A model generated the notes under the pieces. The model saw nothing but the letters and a program-made list of their open reading frames with translations, was not told where the DNA came from and made no database searches. Both the position numbers and the translations under genes were made by a program. A DNA stretch of 64,000 bases, taken from contig CANMJR010000003.1 in assembly GCA_947498025.1 (NCBI GenBank), positions 1-64,000 on the forward strand, given 5' to 3'. Origin of the DNA: Helicobacteraceae bacterium. Its GTDB lineage: Bacteria; Campylobacterota; Campylobacteria; Campylobacterales; Sulfurimonadaceae. This document shows, one piece after another, positions 28,003 to 52,004 of the stretch; position 1 is the first letter of the stretch, and each line of letters begins with the position of its first letter.

Positions 28003-28023
28003 AATACTCCACAAGGTTTTGCT

Positions 28024-29427
28024 TTGATATACTCTAAACAGTTTATACTTGACCAGTTAGCTCCCATTGCCGTTTATTCTAAACTAAAATCTATGTTCAA
28101 CAATGAGATAACCTATCTTTTTGAGAGTGCAGGACAATCCGAAGGAAACTACAGTTTCATCTGCATCGGTGCGAGAGAAAGATTACAATTTATTGACAAC
28201 AAAACAATCTATACAGATGCAAATCAAATGAAGCAGATAAAAGAGGAGAACCCTTTTACATTTTTAAAAGAGTACTATAAAAACATAGACACCTCCACAT
28301 ATAAACAAGCTGCAAAAGAGCTCAATGTAGGATTCATTGATGGGTTTATAGGCTATATCGGCTATGACATGGTAAAAGTGTTTGAACCAAAACTTTGCCA
28401 GAGCATGGAAAATTTAAAAGATGAACTGAACACTCCCGATTTAGATCTGATTTTGCCAAAAATGATTTTAGTTTACTCACACAAGAATCATCAAATCTCT
28501 CTTATCAGCACGCTCAAAGAGATGAGTGACAAATTTGAAACAATCGAGCAGACTCTAAAAAGCAGCTACGAATATGTTCACATGAAGAAAAACATAGGGC
28601 ATGACAGAGGCAGCTTTGCCCACTCAAAAGAGAAATTCTTTAAGATGATTGATGATTCCAAAGAGATGATACGGAGCGGTGATGTTTTTCAGATTTTAAT
28701 GACGAATCGTTTTACAAGAAATATCAAAGTTGACCCCTTTAGTTTTTATCGTATTCTCAGAACAAAAAATCCGTCTCCTTACATGTTTTTGATGGAGTAT
28801 GAAGATTTCAACATTGTCGGAAGTTCTCCTGAAGTTATGGTAAGGCTCACAAATGGTGAACTCCTCCTTCGCCCCATTGCAGGAACAAGAAAAAGAGGCA
28901 GCACAAAAGAGAGAGACAAAGAGCTTGAAATTGAGCTTTTAAATGATCCAAAAGAGCTGGCAGAGCATCTTATGCTTATAGATTTGGGTCGCAATGACAT
29001 AGGAAGAGTTGCAAAAACCGGCACTGTAAAAGTTGAGAACATGATGCATATAGAGAGATTCTCTCATGTTATGCACATAGTCTCAGATGTAACTGCAAAA
29101 CTTGACGACGGCAAAGACATGTTTGACCTCTTTATGGCAACATTTACAGCCGGGACTATGACAGGCGCGCCAAAAATCAGAGCCATGGAGCTGATAGCCG
29201 AATATGAGGGAATCAAAAGAGGCTTTTACAGTGGAACGGTAGGCTACTTTGGATTTGACGGGAATATGGATAGTGCTATAACAATCAGAACCGCCATGGT
29301 TAAAGCGGATAAAGTCGTCCTTCAAGCAGGAGCAGGAGTTGTGGCCGACTCTCAAAATGAGCTGGAGTATCTTGAAGTAAACAACAAGCTCGGTGCACTT
29401 ATGAGTTCATTAGAAGATTTAGACTAA
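28024..29427 (+). CDS. trpE: Anthranilate synthase component I (TrpE/PabB family)
   Basis: This 467-aa chorismate-binding enzyme has GFIDGFIGYIGYDMVKVFEP, RSGDVFQILMTNRFTR, SPSPYMFLM-like NPSPYMFLMEY, LLRPIAGTRKRG, LIDLGRNDIGRVA, FSHVMHIVSDV, FTAGTMTGAPKIRAMELI and GAGVVADSQNELEYLE, all standard for TrpE/PabB. TrpE is favoured by length and N-terminal domain, but PabB is possible. No glutaminase (trpG) is next to it. It starts with TTG, with AAGG upstream, and is followed 11 nt later by aroE. Confidence 0.9.
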   Translation: MIYSKQFILDQLAPIAVYSKLKSMFNNEITYLFESAGQSEGNYSFICIGARERLQFIDNKTIYTDANQMKQIKEENPFTFLKEYYKNIDTSTYKQAAKELNVGFIDGFIGYIGYDMVKVFEPKLCQSMENLKDELNTPDLDLILPKMILVYSHKNHQISLISTLKEMSDKFETIEQTLKSSYEYVHMKKNIGHDRGSFAHSKEKFFKMIDDSKEMIRSGDVFQILMTNRFTRNIKVDPFSFYRILRTKNPSPYMFLMEYEDFNIVGSSPEVMVRLTNGELLLRPIAGTRKRGSTKERDKELEIELLNDPKELAEHLMLIDLGRNDIGRVAKTGTVKVENMMHIERFSHVMHIVSDVTAKLDDGKDMFDLFMATFTAGTMTGAPKIRAMELIAEYEGIKRGFYSGTVGYFGFDGNMDSAITIRTAMVKADKVVLQAGAGVVADSQNELEYLEVNNKLGALMSSLEDLD

Positions 29428-29438
29428 AAGGTTTTAAA

Positions 29439-30233
29439 ATGTCAAAACTTTTTGCCATCTTTGGCGACCCCGTTGCACACTCTCGCTCTCCCCTCATGCA
29501 CAACTCTGTCTTTAAAAATCTAAACTACAAAGCATGTTACACAAGAGTGCATCTCACAGACGGCTCAAAACTTCGAGAGAGTTTCTTTTTACTTGGTTTA
29601 AGCGGAGCAAATATCACCGTTCCGCACAAAGAAGAGGCGTTCAAAGCATGTGACGAGGTAAGAGGTTTTGCAAAAAATATAGGCGTTGTCAATACTATCA
29701 TCAACGAGAACGGAAAACTAATAGGCTACAACACCGATGCAGACGGTTTTATGGAAGCCGTCAAAGAATTCGGGCAAATAAAAACAATTCTGATTATCGG
29801 AGCAGGCGGAACTGCAAAGGCACTGGCAAACAGATTTATTCAAGAGAACATAAAAGTTACAATTTTAAATAGAAGCGAAGATAGGCTCGGCTATTTTAAA
29901 GAGCTGAATTGTGCATGCCACACTTGGGATGATTATGCAACTCAAAAATATGACCTTGTAGTGAACACGACAAGTGCGGGCTTAAAAGAAGAGATACTTC
30001 CATGTCCTTTAGCGTTAGTTGAAGAAATTCTAAACAACACCTCTTTTGCAGCGGATGCAATCTATGGCAAACTAACACCGTTCTTAAAGCTTGCATCTGC
30101 AAAAAACATCACTTACAAAGACGGTGCAGACATGCTCTTAAATCAGGGGATTTTGGCGAATGAACTTTTTGTAAACCGCGAACTAAAAAAAGATGATATA
30201 AAACTCTACATGCAAAAAAGTTTTGAGCTTTAA
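29439..30233 (+). CDS. aroE: Shikimate dehydrogenase
   Basis: This 264-aa enzyme reduces 3-dehydroshikimate with NADPH. Motifs: FGDPVAHSRSPLMHN (substrate site), GANITVPHKEEAF (catalytic Lys), NTDADGFMEAV, the nucleotide loop IIGAGGTAKALANRF, NTTSAG and GADMLLNQGILANELF. Length is normal. Its stop (30231-30233) overlaps by 2 nt the stop of a decayed reverse-strand fragment of the hydrogenase ferredoxin gene. A matching decayed aroE end lies about 1.1 kb further on, beyond a cargo gene. Confidence 0.95.
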   Translation: MSKLFAIFGDPVAHSRSPLMHNSVFKNLNYKACYTRVHLTDGSKLRESFFLLGLSGANITVPHKEEAFKACDEVRGFAKNIGVVNTIINENGKLIGYNTDADGFMEAVKEFGQIKTILIIGAGGTAKALANRFIQENIKVTILNRSEDRLGYFKELNCACHTWDDYATQKYDLVVNTTSAGLKEEILPCPLALVEEILNNTSFAADAIYGKLTPFLKLASAKNITYKDGADMLLNQGILANELFVNRELKKDDIKLYMQKSFEL

Positions 30234-30280
30234 TCAGTTTGATTTTTGAATTTTTCCAATTCAAACTTATTTTTATTCAC
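30230..30280 (-). pseudogene. Remnant of the hydrogenase ferredoxin gene 3' end
   Basis: On the minus strand 30280-30230 reads VNKNKFELEKFKNQTD then stop. The intact ferredoxin-like gene at 31350-31751 ends VNEGWFELEKLKKQSD then stop: 10 of 16 residues are identical with no gap. The remnant stop overlaps the aroE stop with the same offset as the intact gene's stop overlaps the aroE remnant at 31353. So the gene junction exists twice. Confidence 0.85.
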
Positions 30281-30292
30281 TAGACTTTTTTT

Positions 30293-30322
30293 CATTCCAC
30301 CTCAGGAGAGGATGGAACGAGA
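30293..30322 (+). repeat. Dispersed hairpin repeat, copy 2 (plus orientation)
   Basis: CATTCCACCTC (30293-30303), AGGA, GAGGATGGAACGAGA: the same hairpin as copy 1 with one bulged A. It begins 12 nt after the ferredoxin remnant and ends 6 nt before the stop of the HNH-like gene. It pairs with the inverted copy at 31231, so the gene is enclosed by inverted repeats. Confidence 0.88.
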
Positions 30323-30327
30323 AAAAA

Positions 30328-31191
30328 TCAATCTCGCTTCGGTAGAGATTCATCTCCATAATTTTTAAAATCTTCAACTGCCATTTCAAAAGCATGTGTA
30401 TTGTAAAAGTTTGCCTTATTAAATCTATTTTGAGATTTAATATATTGAGTTTCTGAATATTGTTTGACACTATTTTTAACAGTTTCACAACTTTCCTTTA
30501 TAATATCTTCCATACTTGTATGCATATATTGGGTTTTTAAATCAATATATCCATAATTCTGTATTTCAGAATTTCCCCAATATTTATAATTGTAGTTTTC
30601 TACAAAAGCTAAAAATGTAAAATAAGGTAATTTAATATAAAAATATGAACCTCCTTCACTATCTGACATAAAAGTTGCTTCTGATGTTCTTAAGTAACGA
30701 TTAAAAGAAGGGTGAGGATATAAATTTTCATAAAGGATATAAATATTATGATTTATATCCTTCGGTATTTCATTAGTATCAGATAGTAGATATTCTCTCC
30801 AAATTATTTCATATCTATTTATTTTCTTTATCGTTGAATCTTCAAATTTATCAAATAATTTATCTTTTTTATATTTTATTAATACACGCCAAGCTAGTGA
30901 AATTACAAATTTTGATAAATTTATATCATATAGATTTAATATGTTTTCATCAATGAATGGATAAAAGAATTCTTTTGAAAAGTTTGTTTCAAGCTTTGAA
31001 AAATGTTGTTCACATTCATTGCAAAATAAATAGTCTTTGAATCCACCTTGATTTACTTTATCAATATTTTCTGATGACCTAATATTACCTGTAAAAGATG
31101 TTTTTTTTTGCCAATTGTGAATAAACTTTGGAATAATATGACTATCATTAAGTTTCGTATGCTTTTGACATAATTTACAAGTACCATTCAT
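30328..31191 (-). CDS. HNH-like zinc-binding protein, probable cargo gene
   Basis: This 287-aa protein has an N-terminal zinc-knuckle/HNH-like module: CKLCQKHTKLNDSHIIPKF (CxxC and DSHIIP, the His-containing strand of HNH-type folds) followed by LFCNECEQHF (second CxxC) by residue 65. The remaining 220 residues are aromatic-rich and helical (FVISLAWRVLIKYKKDKLF, YFYIKLPYFTFLAFVENYNY), with no recognised domain. The layout is that of HNH-nuclease-like stand-alone proteins often left as hypothetical. Codon use is more AT-rich than that of aroE or the hydrogenase genes. Enclosed by inverted hairpin repeats and a duplicated gene junction, it looks horizontally acquired; nuclease or defence activity is an inference. 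Confidence 0.72.
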   Translation of the reverse strand: MNGTCKLCQKHTKLNDSHIIPKFIHNWQKKTSFTGNIRSSENIDKVNQGGFKDYLFCNECEQHFSKLETNFSKEFFYPFIDENILNLYDINLSKFVISLAWRVLIKYKKDKLFDKFEDSTIKKINRYEIIWREYLLSDTNEIPKDINHNIYILYENLYPHPSFNRYLRTSEATFMSDSEGGSYFYIKLPYFTFLAFVENYNYKYWGNSEIQNYGYIDLKTQYMHTSMEDIIKESCETVKNSVKQYSETQYIKSQNRFNKANFYNTHAFEMAVEDFKNYGDESLPKRD

Positions 31192-31230
31192 AACAAGTAA
31201 CCTTTTTTAATTTCTTTTAGATAAAAATTT

Positions 31231-31260
31231 TCTCGTTCCATCCTCTCCCGAGGTGGAATG
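31231..31260 (-). repeat. Dispersed hairpin repeat, copy 3 (minus orientation)
   Basis: TCTCGTTCCATCCTC (31231-31245), TCCC, GAGGTGGAATG: the reverse complement of copy 2 with nearly every base kept. It lies 39 nt upstream of the HNH-like gene start and forms the right boundary of the cargo segment. Confidence 0.88.
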
Positions 31261-31287
31261 CCTACTCAAACCAAAGCTTTATAACAA

Positions 31288-31353
31288 TCCGACCAGAATT
31301 ATAACAATAAGCTCTTTGTAAACCAAGAACTTCTACATGCAAAAGAGTTTTAA
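31288..31353 (+). pseudogene. Remnant of an aroE 3' end
   Basis: In frame, 31288-31353 reads SDQNYNNKLFVNQELLHAKE then F and stop. Intact aroE reads NQGILANELFVNREL and, after a stretch missing here, ends YMQKSFEL. The DNA matches best in TTTGTAAACC, GAACT, CTACATGCAAAA and TTTTAATCA. The remnant stop overlaps the ferredoxin gene stop, giving the original convergent junction. No other part of aroE is present. Confidence 0.75.
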
Positions 31354-31751
31354 TCACTCTGCTTTTTTAACTTCTCAAGCTCAAACCAACCCTCATTCAC
31401 TCTGTCATCCACAACGGCGACTGAAGGTTTTTTATTGCTTTGCCAAAGTGCTTCATCCGGCTTTGGACATGCCCGCACACACTCGCTGCAATAGATGCAA
31501 AGATAGGGATTGTAGTGGTATTGCAATCCCTTTTTGTTCTTATCATTTTCCGGCGGATTCTCTACCGGTACAAATAAAATAGCCCCAGGGGGACAAGCTT
31601 TTTCACACTTTAGGCAGTAGATGCATGCCTCTTCGCCATACTCAATTAAACCTCTGTACTCTCTGTCTTTTACTATCGGTGTAACCGGATAATCAATCGT
31701 TTGCGGTTTTTTAAAAAGGTTTGTAAAAGCTTTTTTAAGTGAAGTCAGCAT
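31350..31751 (-). CDS. Ferredoxin-like 2x[4Fe-4S] subunit of group 4 hydrogenase (HycF/HyfH/NuoI-like)
   Basis: This 133-aa protein has two cluster motifs, CIYCLKCEKACPPGAI and CIYCSECVRACPKPDE, each CxxCxxCxxxCP. This is the polyferredoxin of Hyc/Hyf/Ech-type hydrogenases that carries electrons between the NiFe small subunit and the partner. It is the last gene of the hydrogenase operon, 10 nt after the large-subunit gene. It begins MLTSLKKAFTNLFKKPQTIDYP, as NuoI/HycF proteins do. Confidence 0.9.
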   Translation of the reverse strand: MLTSLKKAFTNLFKKPQTIDYPVTPIVKDREYRGLIEYGEEACIYCLKCEKACPPGAILFVPVENPPENDKNKKGLQYHYNPYLCIYCSECVRACPKPDEALWQSNKKPSVAVVDDRVNEGWFELEKLKKQSD

Positions 31752-31760
31752 CTCAAAATC

Positions 31761-32846
31761 CTACTTTGCCGTGCATGACAAACATGGGTCAAAAGATGCC
31801 AAAATAGCAGGAGCATCTGCATAATTTTCGCCCACAAAGATGTGAGAGAATACAGGAATAGATGCAAATGTCGGTGTTTTTATTCGTACACGCTCTAGCA
31901 TTGCACTTCCATTTCCTTTTACATAGTACATCAACTCCCCTCTTGGTGCTTCAAATCTCACAATAGCTTCACCGTTTGGTTTTCCTTTGAGTTTTGTAAA
32001 AATTGCACCCTCCGGCAATCCGCTCAAAACATTTTCACACATTAAAATCGAGTTGAGTATCTCATGCAATCTTACAATGTTTCTTGCGTTTATATCTCCC
32101 TCACTCTGCGTTTGCATGGCAAAGCCGACCTCATTAAAGGGTAAATAATCTATCTCATTTCGTACATCAATATTGAGCCCTGAAGCTCTTGCCAATGGAC
32201 CGATTGCATTAAACATGTAGGCGTCATCAAGGCTCAATGCCCCAATTCCTTTAAACTTCAGAGAGAGACTCCAGTTGTTTGTAAACTCATCCATGTAGCC
32301 TAAAACTCTCTGTTTCACTTCATAAAGATTTTCTATAATTTTTTTGGCTACTTCACTATTTATGTCTCTGTTGACTCCGCCGATATTGATATAATCAAAC
32401 TGAACTCTATTGCCCGTCAGAAGCTCTTGTATCTCCATCACAAGCTCTCTGTCGCCCATAATCCTCATAAACATGGCTTCAAACCCTGCATTTTCGCAAG
32501 TGTGGGAAAGGCATAACATGTGGGAGTGAATTCTGTCTAGCTCCAAGAGTAAGATTCTCAAATATTTTGCTTTTTTTGTAATCTCACCACCCAAAAGTTT
32601 CTCGACGGCGGCAGTATAAGAGAGTGAATGGGTAATGGCGCAAAGCCCGCAAACTCTTGCAACCACATAGCCGATTGCATCAAATTTAAACTTTGTAGTA
32701 CATGCCCGCTCTATGCCGCGATGCACAAATCCCACATCCGAATCAACACTTATAATCTTTTCGTTTTCACACTCAAACTTAAATCTCACAGGCTCTAAAA
32801 GTGAGATATGCTGTGAGCCTAAAGGAATATTTATTGTTTTTTTCAT
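31761..32846 (-). CDS. Group 4 [NiFe] hydrogenase large subunit (HycE C-domain/NuoD-like)
   Basis: This is a protein of about 361 aa with both nickel-binding motifs: ARVCGLCAITHSLSY (L1) near residue 62 and DPCLSC at the very C-terminus (L2). It also has DRIHSHMLCLSHTCENAGFE, GGVNRDINSEV and EAPRGELMYYVKGNGS. The presence of all four Ni cysteines marks a true hydrogenase and not complex I. The protein ends CTAK, so there is no C-terminal extension to remove after the L2 motif. The ATG at 32846 overlaps the upstream stop (ATGA), and the longer frame from 32855 is less likely. Confidence 0.92.
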   Translation of the reverse strand: MKKTINIPLGSQHISLLEPVRFKFECENEKIISVDSDVGFVHRGIERACTTKFKFDAIGYVVARVCGLCAITHSLSYTAAVEKLLGGEITKKAKYLRILLLELDRIHSHMLCLSHTCENAGFEAMFMRIMGDRELVMEIQELLTGNRVQFDYINIGGVNRDINSEVAKKIIENLYEVKQRVLGYMDEFTNNWSLSLKFKGIGALSLDDAYMFNAIGPLARASGLNIDVRNEIDYLPFNEVGFAMQTQSEGDINARNIVRLHEILNSILMCENVLSGLPEGAIFTKLKGKPNGEAIVRFEAPRGELMYYVKGNGSAMLERVRIKTPTFASIPVFSHIFVGENYADAPAILASFDPCLSCTAK

Positions 32847-33190
32847 ATTGCACATCCGCTCAAAGGTCTCTGCATGGAGTCTTCATCAAGATAGAGACCC
32901 TTCTCACTTCCATCCACTTTCACCCCAAACATGTCAACAATCTCTCTTTGTGAAATTATTGCCGATGGTACCATGTCAACGATTGAGGGAATAATATCCG
33001 TATATTCAATCTCTGCGTAATAGACAATTACCTCATCCAAAGCTTCATATTTTGAAAATATCCACTGAACTTCCATTCTGTTCTCTGCCAATGCCAAGCC
33101 GTTTAAAGTCAGGAAGTGCCACTTTTTATAATCATAAAAACTCTCTATTTCTTCTCTTACACTCTCAAGTGAAACTTTAATTTTCTTCAT
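32843..33190 (-). CDS. Group 4 hydrogenase 30-kDa-like subunit (HycE N-domain/NuoC-like)
   Basis: This is a protein of about 115 aa: MKKIKVSLESVREEIESFYD, WHFLTLNGLALAENRMEVQW, VYYAEIEYTDIIPSIVDMVP and REIVDMFGVKVDGSEKGLYL. The last part is the NuoC signature (E-xxD-xFG-x-x-F/V). In E. coli Hyc and Hyf this domain is fused to the large subunit; here it is separate, as in Ech-like and complex I. GGGAGAGG lies just before the ATG at 33190. It overlaps its neighbours by 14 nt upstream and 4 nt downstream. Confidence 0.87.
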   Translation of the reverse strand: MKKIKVSLESVREEIESFYDYKKWHFLTLNGLALAENRMEVQWIFSKYEALDEVIVYYAEIEYTDIIPSIVDMVPSAIISQREIVDMFGVKVDGSEKGLYLDEDSMQRPLSGCAI

Positions 33191-33710
33191 GAACCTCTCC
33201 CACTTTGAGTGCAACATTTCTTCTATTTACAACACCGTTCTCAGAAATTGCCTCTTTAAAGAGCTTAAGTGGTTTTTCCATCTCTTTACTCTTTTTCTCT
33301 AAAATATCAAGCGCTTTTACTACTCCATCTATAATTAACTCAGGAGAAACGGCACACCCCGCAATGTAAACATCTACGGGAATATATCTGTCAATTCCAT
33401 CCTCTACATTATACATGTCACGAAAAACTCCACCCGTACATGTGCAGCTTCCAACCGCTACCACAACCTTTGGTTCCGGCATTTGGGTGTAAAGTTCTAT
33501 CAATCTCTCTCTGCTTCTGTAGGTAACCGGACCTGTCACCAAAAATATATCCGACTGCTTCGGATTACCCGTGTTAATTACTCCGAATCTCTCCAAATCA
33601 TATTTTGGTGAAAGAGAAGCCAATATCTCAATATCGCAACCGTTGCAACTGCCTGCATTGTAGTGAAGTATCCATGGTGATTTTTTTCTATATTTTTTCA
33701 AATCAAACAT
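33177..33710 (-). CDS. Group 4 hydrogenase small subunit (HycG/HyfI/NuoB-like)
   Basis: This is a protein of about 177 aa carrying the single [4Fe-4S] cluster next to the NiFe site: YNAGSCNGCDIEIL (CxxC), VAVGSCTCTGGVF and YIAGCAVSPELIIDG. The last motif has GCAVSPE where most relatives have GCPPRPE. The start ATG at 33710 has AGGA 7 nt upstream and overlaps the membrane-subunit stop. It is followed by the NuoC-like gene with a 14-nt overlap. Confidence 0.9.
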   Translation of the reverse strand: MFDLKKYRKKSPWILHYNAGSCNGCDIEILASLSPKYDLERFGVINTGNPKQSDIFLVTGPVTYRSRERLIELYTQMPEPKVVVAVGSCTCTGGVFRDMYNVEDGIDRYIPVDVYIAGCAVSPELIIDGVVKALDILEKKSKEMEKPLKLFKEAISENGVVNRRNVALKVGEVHEEN

Positions 33711-34527
33711 AAGCAAGTCCTATGAGATTGCAGATGCCAAGGGTTAAACCAAGGCTCAAAACTATTTTTATGAGGTGTTTCATTTTTATTCTCGCAGTTG
33801 CATTATCTACTAAATTTACGAGTAAAAAGACTCCAATAAATAAACCAATTCCAAGGAGAATATTGTCTCCTGCAAAGAGCATTAAAAGCAGATAAGCAAA
33901 AATATACTCAAGCCACTTTGCCATGTACAAAAATTCAAAAAAAATCCCGCTAAACTCAATCTCCACACCGCCGACTATCTCTTGATGTGCTTCAGTGGCG
34001 TCAAATGGAGATTTTTTAAGTTTGATTGGAATTACCATTAAATATGCCAAAAAGAGCAAAAAGAGTGATGCAATAGATGCACCATGTTCTCTAATCACAG
34101 CTATATCAAAACTTCCGTTCACCATAAAGAAGCCGACAGCCATCATAATTAAAATCGGCTCATAGGCAAGCGCTGCCAGAAGTTCTCTGTTTGAGCCGAT
34201 ATGAGAGTAGATAGATTTCACACTAAATCCAGCTAAAATCAAAAAGATGGAGGAGAGAAGATGTAAAAATATCACATAGAGTAAATTTTGCCCCATTATT
34301 ATAAATGCAACCACAACCCAGAGCGTTATAAAGTGCATTATTCCCAAAATAGTGTGGTATGGATTGACTATAAACGCCTGCTTATCTATGAGTTTAAACA
34401 TGTCATAAAATGGCTGAAGCAGCGGAGGACCTTGACGGTTTTGCATCCTTGCACGAACGACCCTCTCAAATCCGTAAATTATACCGCCGATGAACGGTGC
34501 AAAAACAATCAATAAAATTTCTATCAC
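33703..34527 (-). CDS. Group 4 hydrogenase membrane subunit (HycD/HyfC/NuoH-like)
   Basis: This 274-aa protein has about seven to eight membrane helices and the NuoH signature: RARMQNRQGPPLLQPFYDMFKLIDKQ near the N-terminus, SNRELLAALAYEPILI, KKSPFDATEAHQEIVGGVEI and EFSGIFFEFLYMAKWLEYI. The start is GTG. It anchors the hydrogenase arm to the membrane and forms part of the proton or sodium path. Between it and the large NuoL-like subunit upstream there is an inserted rhuM-like gene. Confidence 0.92.
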   Translation of the reverse strand: MIEILLIVFAPFIGGIIYGFERVVRARMQNRQGPPLLQPFYDMFKLIDKQAFIVNPYHTILGIMHFITLWVVVAFIIMGQNLLYVIFLHLLSSIFLILAGFSVKSIYSHIGSNRELLAALAYEPILIMMAVGFFMVNGSFDIAVIREHGASIASLFLLFLAYLMVIPIKLKKSPFDATEAHQEIVGGVEIEFSGIFFEFLYMAKWLEYIFAYLLLMLFAGDNILLGIGLFIGVFLLVNLVDNATARIKMKHLIKIVLSLGLTLGICNLIGLAYV

Positions 34528-34549
34528 GATACAACTCCAATTGTTGGTC

Positions 34550-35527
34550 TCATCTCAAAGCCTTTAAATCTGCTTCTAACTCTTTTAAACTCTCTGCTCT
34601 TTGTGACTCTTTTTGATTTGTTTTATATTTTTCATACTCTAATGATAATTTTTCTTTCATTATCTCATAACCTATTTTTCCCGCATGTGTTAAAAGTTCT
34701 CTCCCGTTTAAGCTTATCACATCATCTAATTTTTTTATCCAATCTTGCATGTACATAACTTTTTTTTGCTGTGCCATTGTTTCTGCAAATGCTAAATACT
34801 GCTCAACTAAAAGACCCAAAAGTTTTATCTCATCTTCGTTAAGATAATTTTTTGCAATACTAACATCCGCTTTTGTAATTTTTTTGCCATCTTTATCAAG
34901 TGAGTTCATTCCAAGTTGTGGTAAATTTATATCCATTCTGTTGTGTACAAGTTCGGCAGCTGTTTGCTCTGAAACCGCCCAAAGAAGCTTGTTTTGCACT
35001 ATTTTAAAAAAGAGTTTTGTTTTTGCATCATCTTTATCATAATCTTTGCTTGTCATGTAGATATCTTTGATTTTTTGGTAAAAAAACCTCTCAGATATTC
35101 GTATCTCTCTGAGCCTTGTTTGTAACTCATCAAAATAATTCATAGAATTTCCGCTTTTAAACCTCTCGTCGTTTAAAACAAACCCTTTTGTTATATACTC
35201 ATTCAGCCTCTGTGTCGCCCATATTCGAAACTGTGTACCTTGCGGAGATTTTACTCTAAAACCTATAGCAATTATCATGTCAAGGTTATAGTGATTTACA
35301 TTGTAATTTTTAGCATCATTGGCAGTTATCCGGAAATTCCGGATAACTGCATCTTGCAACAATTCCTTTTCTAAAAATATATTAGTGATATGCTCATTTA
35401 TTGTTTTTACGCTTTTTCCAAAGATATCTGACATCTGCTTTTGACTGAGCCAAATAGATTTATCCTCAAAAGTTACATCTACTTTAACATCGCCATTTTC
35501 ATTTTGATATATTATTACATCACTCAT
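34550..35527 (-). CDS. RhuM-family protein inserted in the hydrogenase operon
   Basis: This 325-aa protein has the RhuM ('virulence protein') pattern: IYQNENGDVKVDVTFEDKSI, WLSQKQMSDIFGKSVKTINE (helix-turn-helix-like), NYNVNHYNLDMIIAIGFRVK, GTQFRIWATQRLNEYITKGF, SERFFYQKIKDIYMTSKDYD and a C-terminal helical part. The family is common near phage, plasmid and defence genes; its biochemical role is not established. It starts right after a 9-codon reading frame that follows the NuoL-like gene and ends 20 nt before the NuoH-like gene, on the same strand, so the operon can still be transcribed through. Confidence 0.88.
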   Translation of the reverse strand: MSDVIIYQNENGDVKVDVTFEDKSIWLSQKQMSDIFGKSVKTINEHITNIFLEKELLQDAVIRNFRITANDAKNYNVNHYNLDMIIAIGFRVKSPQGTQFRIWATQRLNEYITKGFVLNDERFKSGNSMNYFDELQTRLREIRISERFFYQKIKDIYMTSKDYDKDDAKTKLFFKIVQNKLLWAVSEQTAAELVHNRMDINLPQLGMNSLDKDGKKITKADVSIAKNYLNEDEIKLLGLLVEQYLAFAETMAQQKKVMYMQDWIKKLDDVISLNGRELLTHAGKIGYEIMKEKLSLEYEKYKTNQKESQRAESLKELEADLKALR

Positions 35528-35557
35528 CTATCTCACCACTTCTTCAAGCTGTTTCAT
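35528..35557 (-). pseudogene. Truncated short reading frame split by rhuM
   Basis: The ATG at 35557 directly follows the NuoL-like stop and reads MKQLEEVVR then stop. Removing the rhuM segment between TGAGA on both sides joins it to the bases before the NuoH-like gene and gives MKQLEEVVRPTIGVVS, whose stop overlaps the GTG start of that gene (GTGA). This reconstruction is an inference from the sequence. Confidence 0.55.
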
Positions 35558-37318
35558 CTAAAACATAACCCCAACTATCAATAGCAACATGCCGGCGATA
35601 GCTATCATGGCGATGTTTTTTTGAATCCTATGAGACATGTGAAAGTAGTACATGTTTAGCTGTATCTCATCCTTCTCACCGCAGTTATACTCTTTGACTC
35701 TATCTGCTTTTTTAAAGAGTATCAGTGCAAAAAGCAGAGGAACAATCGCAACCAAAAAGAGCGGCACAATAATTTCCAAAGAGCTTAGTAACTCCAGCTC
35801 AAAACTGATATAAATACCGACAACTAGCAAAATCAAAAGCAGATAGGATGGGATAGTGTAAAATTTTGATATTTTTATATCTACTGTTTTTATTTCAACA
35901 TCTTTTGCAAAAAGTTTTGTTACAACCTTAAAATAGAGCAGCGTCAAAAATGCACTTCCAAGTGCCAAAAATATAAGGGCAAATACATAGAGTGGATTTT
36001 TTATAATCTCACTTGCAATAGTTTCTATCGCCATAAACTTAGCTATAAAAGCCCCAAAAGGAGGAAGTGTAAGTGAGGCAAAACCAACGATTATAAAAAA
36101 TACCACAAGCGGAGAGTGGTTGATTAAGCCGTTTATATCGTTTACATATTTCAGATGAAAACTCTTCTCTAAAATACCTGCCTGTAAAAAAAGCAAAGCT
36201 TTTGAGAGCGCATGAAAAACTATAAGAACCAAACATGCAGTTATAGCCTCGGGCGTCCCAATGGCTGCAAGAGCCATCATAAGCCCAAGCAGAGCGATTG
36301 TGGAGTATCCAAGTATCTCTTTAAAATAATCTTTGCCTAGAGCCAGAAGCGAGGCGGCAAAAAATACAAATGTGCCAAGCAAAGTGATAGTAAGCGAAAC
36401 AAAGCCGCTCATGGCAGGGGCAAGTTTCAACATCAAATAAGGAGCAATTTTTACCATGGTTGCGCTATGCAAAATTGCACTTACTGGAGTCGGTGCAACC
36501 ATGGCACCCAAAAGCCACTTATCAAAGGGAATACTTGCACCTTTTACAAATGCCGCTATCGCTAAAAAAACAATCGGCAAGAGATAGTATTCGTTTATAT
36601 TAGCTATAAGTACATCAAAGCAAACTGTTTTATATTGAAGTATAGTAAAAACAAGAGCTATAAGAATTGCAACTCCGCCTATCTGATTCATCCATAGAGC
36701 TTTTTGTGCATTTAAAACTGACACCTCATCGCCGCGGTACCCGATTAAAATATAAGAGCAGAGAGTAGTCAGCTCAAAAAGCAGAAAGAATATTTCAATA
36801 TTGTTGGTTGAAACAATAAAGTTCATAACCGATAAAAAGAAAAAGAGCATGGCTATAAATCCATTTTTCTTTGCTCTGCTAAACTCTTCGCTCTCTATAT
36901 ATTTAAGTGCATAGACGATGATTATTCCGCCAACAATATTAATTATCAGGTACATGACCGAGGAGATTTCATCAACAAAAATGTCGTTTGAGATAAGGGT
37001 TGGAGCTAAAAAGAGAGCTCCAATATAGAGCATTATCTGCAACATGGCAAATATTTTTACAAGAGAGTTTTTAGTTTTAACCCCTTGCCAAAGGAAGAAG
37101 AGAAGAACCATACTGTCAAGTAAAATAAACAGATTATGAAAGAAATGTGGCAAAATAGTCTCTGTCGGTGCATGAAAAAGAAGAACATTTACGATACTTA
37201 GAAAACTTAAACCAATCACAAAAGCTATGGCAAGAATATTTCTAATAACAACCCCACTCACCATTACAACCAATGCAAAAAACAGTGGAGCAGTAATCAG
37301 GAGACTATAGGTTGTCAT
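35558..37318 (-). CDS. Group 4 hydrogenase antiporter-like subunit (HyfB/HycC/NuoL-like)
   Basis: This 586-aa membrane protein has about 14-16 helices and the proton-channel signature: FIVSTNNIEIFFLLFELTTL with a conserved Glu, FVKGASIPFDKWLLGAMVAP TPVSAILHSATMVK (conserved Lys and His), YFKEILGYSTIALLGL and VFHALSKALLFL. It belongs to the Mrp-antiporter/NuoL superfamily that moves H+ or Na+ when electrons flow in the hydrophilic arm. Its start overlaps the soluble hydrogenase large-subunit stop by 4 nt, so both hydrogenases are in one transcript. Confidence 0.92.
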   Translation of the reverse strand: MTTYSLLITAPLFFALVVMVSGVVIRNILAIAFVIGLSFLSIVNVLLFHAPTETILPHFFHNLFILLDSMVLLFFLWQGVKTKNSLVKIFAMLQIMLYIGALFLAPTLISNDIFVDEISSVMYLIINIVGGIIIVYALKYIESEEFSRAKKNGFIAMLFFFLSVMNFIVSTNNIEIFFLLFELTTLCSYILIGYRGDEVSVLNAQKALWMNQIGGVAILIALVFTILQYKTVCFDVLIANINEYYLLPIVFLAIAAFVKGASIPFDKWLLGAMVAPTPVSAILHSATMVKIAPYLMLKLAPAMSGFVSLTITLLGTFVFFAASLLALGKDYFKEILGYSTIALLGLMMALAAIGTPEAITACLVLIVFHALSKALLFLQAGILEKSFHLKYVNDINGLINHSPLVVFFIIVGFASLTLPPFGAFIAKFMAIETIASEIIKNPLYVFALIFLALGSAFLTLLYFKVVTKLFAKDVEIKTVDIKISKFYTIPSYLLLILLVVGIYISFELELLSSLEIIVPLFLVAIVPLLFALILFKKADRVKEYNCGEKDEIQLNMYYFHMSHRIQKNIAMIAIAGMLLLIVGVMF

Positions 37319-51955: not shown

Positions 51956-51973
51956 GTAATTGTCAGAAAATCT

Positions 51974-52004
51974 TCTCGTTCCATCCTCCCCCAAGGTGGG
52001 ATGC
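51974..52004 (-). repeat. Dispersed hairpin repeat, copy 4 (minus orientation)
   Basis: TCTCGTTCCATCCTC (51974-51988), CCCCC, AAGGTGGGATGC: same unit as copy 3, with a slightly altered loop and right arm. It lies in the 53-bp space between two convergent genes (stops at 51955 and 52009) and could serve as their terminator. No plus-oriented partner was found to its left. Confidence 0.8.

Follow-up and report, generated by a model that had tools for sequence, protein, structure and literature searches.

Insertion with long target duplication (ILTD) was described in Helicobacter pylori by Nobusato, Uchiyama, Ohashi & Kobayashi (2000, Gene 259:99; cited in PMC1643837, PMC3154945 and PMC3874152). 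In these later papers, ILTD is often tied to restriction-modification genes (PMC1643837), and a review puts the duplication on the scale of 100 bp, a long and variable length (PMC3874152). REP repeats are a second system of relevance here; they favour the gaps between convergent and unidirectional genes, and REP clusters with duplicated flanking DNA have been described (PMC3733652).

The window analysed here is a 64-kb stretch of DNA, contig C3 of a 2.93-Mb genome (G000). Comparisons were made within a genus sample of 135 genomes, mostly MAGs in many contigs and with one genome per species; the relatives named below are Sulfurimonas and Campylobacterales MAGs. In the window, aroE (plus strand) and a ferredoxin gene, fd (minus strand), would be expected to meet tail to tail, and their meeting is interrupted at 30.2–31.4 kb by a 973-bp unit that consists, from left to right, of a REP hairpin, a 287-aa minus-strand gene and an inverted second REP. 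Outside both REPs lie an fd-end remnant on the left and an aroE-end remnant on the right. The features of the locus were as follows.

29439–30233, plus strand: intact aroE (shikimate dehydrogenase; Pfam Shikimate_dh_N/Shikimate_DH; 95% amino acid identity in G100); its 3' ~94 bp (30140–30233) are part of the duplicated stretch.
About 30140–30281: left junction copy, made up of the aroE end and the fd remnant.
30230–30281, minus strand: left fd gene-end remnant, VNKNKFELEKFKNQTD, recognised by in-register alignment with the right fd end and with the single junctions of relatives.
30293–30321, plus strand: left REP hairpin, found by pattern matches; the GTAG tag is missing and flanking T/A tracts lengthen the stem.
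30328–31191, minus strand: cargo gene (ORF of 287 aa) of an uncharacterised family with a CxxC-SHIIPK-CxxC motif.
31232–31265, minus strand: right REP hairpin, GTAGGCATTCCACCTCGGGAGAGGATGGAACGAG, kept at the same place in G100 and G128.
31266–31291, minus strand: extended REP arm, GGATTGTTATAAAGCTTTGGTTTGA, at the same place in G100 and G128, with ~17 bp in common with the REP at G000:C11:41262.
31306–31353, plus strand: right aroE-end remnant, with a ~20-bp deletion common to G000 and G100 and absent in G128.
31350–31751, minus strand: intact fd, a ferredoxin-like hydrogenase-operon gene of 133 aa (Pfam Fer4; orthologues in 22 genus genomes).
31306–31353 with 31350–31751: right junction copy, made up of the aroE remnant and the intact fd.

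The two junction copies aligned in register across both genes with a score of 73 (gapped local alignment), against a mean of 23.5, a standard deviation of 4.8 and a maximum of 51 in 1247 same-size control windows of the 64 kb. An earlier note on this DNA had claimed a duplication of the aroE/fd junction around a unit of ~970 bp, and this was confirmed; chance similarity, which it had named as the alternative, was not borne out. Present identity between the copies is only ~69%, and the breakpoints are blurred for this reason. The length of ~115 bp given to the repeat proved too short, as the original duplication would have been nearer 150–165 bp and the right copy in G128 keeps about 94 bp of the aroE end. 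The same overlap of stop codons had been reported in both copies: the TTAA overlap is indeed kept twice, but the right aroE remnant of G000, having lost a few bases before the stop, is out of frame with it.

The same locus was then compared in relatives. In LacPavin34_15 and S03Bin072, aroE and fd adjoin directly and their stops overlap in the same way, and GH10, NORP168 and SulCav have a simple convergent aroE/fd junction; all five have neither remnant nor cargo, and so keep one copy of the target without an insert, as in ILTD. DNA of the empty-site LacPavin genome (L070) aligned across the junction with each half of the window (28023–30266 and 31345–35965), the two alignments overlapping by 42 bp, which is what duplication predicts. 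Two closer relatives have the duplicated junction. On either flank of the locus, DNA of G100 is 91–93% identical to the window, and that of G128 is 88% identical on the hydrogenase side, the G128 contig ending inside the cargo, before the left side of the junction. In both, the right aroE remnant, the extended REP arm and the REP lie at the same place as in G000. The left fd remnant is present in G100 as well, and no left REP is recognisable there, though the duplication is the same. The aroE remnant is longest in G128, and the right-hand remnants of the three genomes group together.

The DNA between the junction copies is unrelated in each of the three: G100 carries a 320-aa lipoprotein with DUF4116 repeats and G128 a 134-aa secreted protein, and the 287-aa cargo of the window had no match at either junction locus. 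Relatives with the remnants and no cargo, an arrangement that the earlier note held to be incompatible with its reading, were not found; the same remnants were found instead with different cargo. Because G100 and G128 hold different cargo in the duplicated junction, the duplication is older than the present cargo. It is most simply placed as one event before the G000/G100/G128 split, with cargo changed afterwards, and as it is common to the three species the locus counts as one event only. Elsewhere in the hydrogenase operon, a 325-aa ORF (window 34550–35527; RhuM-like by eye) was present in LacPavin and G128 and missing in G100.

Our preferred reading, to which we give a probability of about 0.52, is that of an old insertion event with long target duplication, in a convergent gap that also holds REPs and whose cargo was exchanged later. 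The ancestor of G000, G100 and G128 would have had an ordinary convergent aroE/fd junction with overlapping stops. One ancestral insertion would have duplicated about 150–165 bp of target including both gene ends, so that neither aroE nor fd would have been damaged. The redundant inner gene ends would then have decayed, REPs of the resident RAYT family would have settled in the gap, and cargo would have been gained or replaced between species. The step that we prefer is one of staggered single-strand breaks about 100–170 nt apart, after which the gaps would be filled in and incoming DNA captured, with the duplication and the first insertion occurring as one event. The duplication, its presence in three species, the empty sites and the cargo differences are seen directly; the moment of insertion at aroE/fd is shown by no genome examined. 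Of the two readings offered by the earlier note, a process with very long target duplication fits best, and crossover with a foreign circle would be the less likely of the two at this locus. The locus is described here as working like ILTD, and not as a plain member, because its cargo is not of the restriction-modification type and the one-step origin is something that we infer.

The hairpins belong to a dispersed family with the pattern GTA(G/T)GCATTCC-hairpin-GGAACGAG, present in 28 of 134 genus genomes; G000 has 11 copies by the strict pattern and others by a relaxed one. The right REP has the GTAG tag and the left REP is without it; RNA folding gave −18 kcal/mol (z −3.9) for the left and −11.7 kcal/mol for the right. 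An intact-looking RAYT gene at C13:43062–43595 (NCBIfam NF047646, REP-associated tyrosine transposase, 96.5 bits at a cut-off of 80) lies between inverted perfect copies of the same hairpin, and a related RAYT gene is on C11. They are ordinary REP repeats of the GTAG type, belonging to a RAYT family. The claim that inverted hairpins bound the cargo thus holds in that an inverted REP pair encloses the gene, but these are not unique ends, being members of a dispersed family. Since REPs favour convergent and unidirectional gaps (PMC3733652), their presence between aroE and fd needs no special cause. Their role today would at most be that of terminators and of landmarks for recombination. The sequence next to the right REP was considered as the tail of a RAYT gene, but the RAYT found ends differently, and this sequence is called an extended REP arm only.

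A hairpin pair with another gene inside, proposed earlier as something to search for, was found at C13:42398–43018, where likewise oriented REPs surround a 142-aa lipoprotein-like gene. Around it (L012, G000:C13, 6078–7646), four alternating REPs enclose this gene and the RAYT gene, and the corresponding gap in G100 is much shorter. Comparison of window positions 51970–52003 and G000:C6:6107–6140 with G100:C8 (L175) revealed a rearrangement whose breakpoints lie at REPs: the gene end to the left of the C3 REP is next to aguA in G100, and in G000 aguA lies at the C6 REP.

With a REP pair enclosing a gene, the whole unit might be an oversized REPIN moved by the RAYT transposase. Its GTAG/CATTCC ends point outward and GAACGAG inward, as around the 142-aa gene, and the genome has a RAYT that looks intact, together with REPs that match it. 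However, the two REPs stand 0.9 kb apart and the unit has no second copy, so that inverted REPs moving as a unit in several copies, the mark of a REPIN, are not what is seen. The left REP is without GTAG, G100 shows the same duplication and no recognisable left REP, and the cargo at a second site (aguA of G128, below) is not enclosed by REPs. Target duplication is also not known for IS200-type Y1 transposition, and we consider movement as a REPIN very improbable.

At the other REP sites of G000 that were sampled by scan, no comparable flanking repeat was found, which argues that REP movement does not routinely produce such a duplication. Long direct repeats as a general consequence of REP insertion were looked for at ~50 REPs, and the idea was dropped, as controls gave some too and most of the clear ones had another origin. 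Local repeats scoring 60 or more occurred at 8 of 250 control positions, so that any recurrence of the duplication rests on the reading of examples and not on counts. Clear repeats at REPs in other genomes were mostly paralogous pilin genes (L124, L125, L129, L136, L142), RAYT repeats (L126) and tandem REP units (L117).

A second site was met by comparing REP loci with G100 and G128. In G128, the 3' end of aguA, which from reading its sequence we take to be the agmatine deiminase gene, is duplicated (115 bp, 93%) around a toxin gene and its partner (L174, G128:C107, 1364–2270). The order is REP, aguA remnant (1393–1529), a 118-aa toxin of the PemK/MazF family (PF02452), an 82-aa partner and intact aguA. 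A REP stands at the aguA stop codon, and REPs do not surround the mazEF-type cargo. In G100 and G000 there is a single aguA end, with a REP directly behind it. The two G128 copies share five G128-specific bases. Their differences are unevenly spread: five substitutions seen in the intact copy alone fall within the 28 aligned columns at its end, the adjoining 96 columns being free of them (p=0.0004), and the remnant's own changes sit at its broken, opposite end. By this arrangement, aguA in G128 is a second site of the same architecture as aroE/fd.

A possible third site lies in G000 itself. Positions 75782–75930 and 76626–76774 of C6 form a 149-bp direct repeat, 97% identical and without a REP (L218/L219, 75709–76774), which encloses an antitoxin-like/ParE pair consisting of a 75-aa and a ParE-type gene; one copy makes up the 5' portion of a 69-aa antitoxin-like gene. 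The repeat scan of G000 covered about 0.81 Mb, with a threshold too high to pick up old copies like the one in the window. Two other repeats were set aside as not being insertions of the aroE/fd kind: one at C12:29765, around a long ORF read as glnD, and one at C4:94596, consisting of two near-identical copies of apparent tRNA genes.

The order aroE, fd remnant, aroE remnant, fd would also be produced, exactly, by a plain ~160-bp tandem duplication across the junction, followed by entry of REPs and cargo into the harmless gap, and cargo that is unlike in three species is in keeping with such a history. Tandem duplication with a REP at the joint does occur in the genus. At L117 (G073:C38, 1297–1694), a REP is repeated in tandem together with 175 bp from the beginning of a short gene that by eye resembles a nucleotidyltransferase gene, the first copy being cut at the second REP; at L078 (G000:C11:63529–63802), 82-bp direct repeats (91%) surround a REP pair whose stems are of two further types, with a RAYT gene 0.5 kb away. 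Duplicated DNA beside REP clusters is moreover on record (PMC3733652). Such an origin in two steps nevertheless seems to us rather unlikely, as no bare tandem junction copies were found among the 22 fd loci and it does not by itself explain aguA, whose copies likewise enclose cargo.

The ILTD-like reading has also to be weighed against the other model of the earlier note, in which a single crossover brought in circular or concatemeric DNA that carried the cargo and the junction of a related species. The remnants might then be nearer to another species' junction than to this one's, and on this point the two remnants differed. The 111-bp aroE remnant of G128, the best preserved, is 78% identical to the intact aroE of G100, 75% to that of G000 and 58–63% to those outside the clade. 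It is thus closest to the clade's own aroE. This makes a distant donor less likely, and one from inside the clade would be compatible with it. The left fd remnant was slightly nearer to LacPavin/S03Bin072 (43–44/59, 73–75%) than to its own intact fd (34/57, 60%), in a comparison that spans only 57–59 bp. Its affinity is ambiguous because the own fd end is itself unusual (48/51 with G128, 44/57 with G100). The mosaic of the aguA copy in G128 is the pattern that would be expected of crossover with a slightly foreign segment, but gene conversion between the copies would leave an identical one. Neither a circle or plasmid nor a donor was found, and the divergent aguA end had no close source among 134 genus genomes. 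The ComEC profile (PF03772) was not detected in G000, though control profiles matched, and natural transformation was not relied on as a route for this reason. On balance we regard entry by crossover as unlikely.

The GC content of the cargo gene, 24.5%, equals that of the lowest 864-bp segment of the 64 kb, against 36.8% for the window. Scans against Pfam, NCBIfam and PADLOC gave no family match above cut-off, and no restriction-modification family among them. It had been called HNH-like, and the CxxC-SHIIPK-CxxC pattern fits this, but Pfam HNH_5 was matched only at E=0.074, below cut-off; HNH-like seems a fair description of a candidate nuclease. By tblastn, relatives of 26–30% identity were found as plasmid genes in Lysinibacillus, Haloplanus, Cytobacillus and Pseudoalteromonas, each standing alone with unrelated genes as neighbours, and one phage record also holds a distant relative. 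The motif is largely conserved in the cargo and four relatives, with C5, C8, S17-H18-I20-P21, C57 and C60-E61 invariant among them. No relatives were found in the genome-contig and viral-contig collections. Among 60 genus genomes searched for the protein, there was no trace beyond G000 except for a decayed fragment in G045 (L017, G045:C14:5742–5927), with 44% identity over 58 aa and seven stops. The cargo is a stand-alone gene of foreign composition that probably, at a guess, encodes a nuclease-like or defence protein.

The sites at aroE/fd, aguA and C6 could all be products of one general, integrase-free process of Sulfurimonas-type genomes, the same as in Helicobacter and reaching beyond restriction-modification genes, which sets small addictive or defence genes beside gene ends and duplicates 100–170 bp while the target gene survives; we offer this as a speculation that we ourselves doubt. 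Cargo other than restriction-modification genes in a free-living relative would show that ILTD is not tied to restriction enzymes, and sites with empty and filled alleles across species would make its mechanism testable, including whether the extra copy originates from the recipient or from the incoming DNA.

Compared with ILTD as the citing papers describe it, the locus is alike in being a small integrase-free module between direct target repeats of the order of 100 bp (about 150–165 bp originally, on both sides), with a single copy in a relative and within the same phylum. It differs in its cargo, which is HNH-like or uncharacterised (toxin-antitoxin genes at the other sites) and not restriction-modification; in its target, a convergent stop-stop junction with REPs bordering the cargo; and in its age, the event being old and common to three species, with the cargo turned over. 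With the GTAG-type REP/RAYT system (PMC3733652), it shares the GTAG tag, the short intergenic hairpin, the many copies between convergent genes and a RAYT flanked by the same repeats. It differs from that system in having GGAACGAG at the other end, in Sulfurimonas-type genomes, and in a REP pair with a 0.9-kb gene inside, a spacing well above that of the usual dimer. Direct repeats of a homologous segment around the integrated DNA are likewise left by Campbell-type single-crossover integration, whereas here no donor circle, integrase or clear foreign copy was found, and of the three systems it is ILTD that the aroE/fd locus resembles in the way it appears to work.
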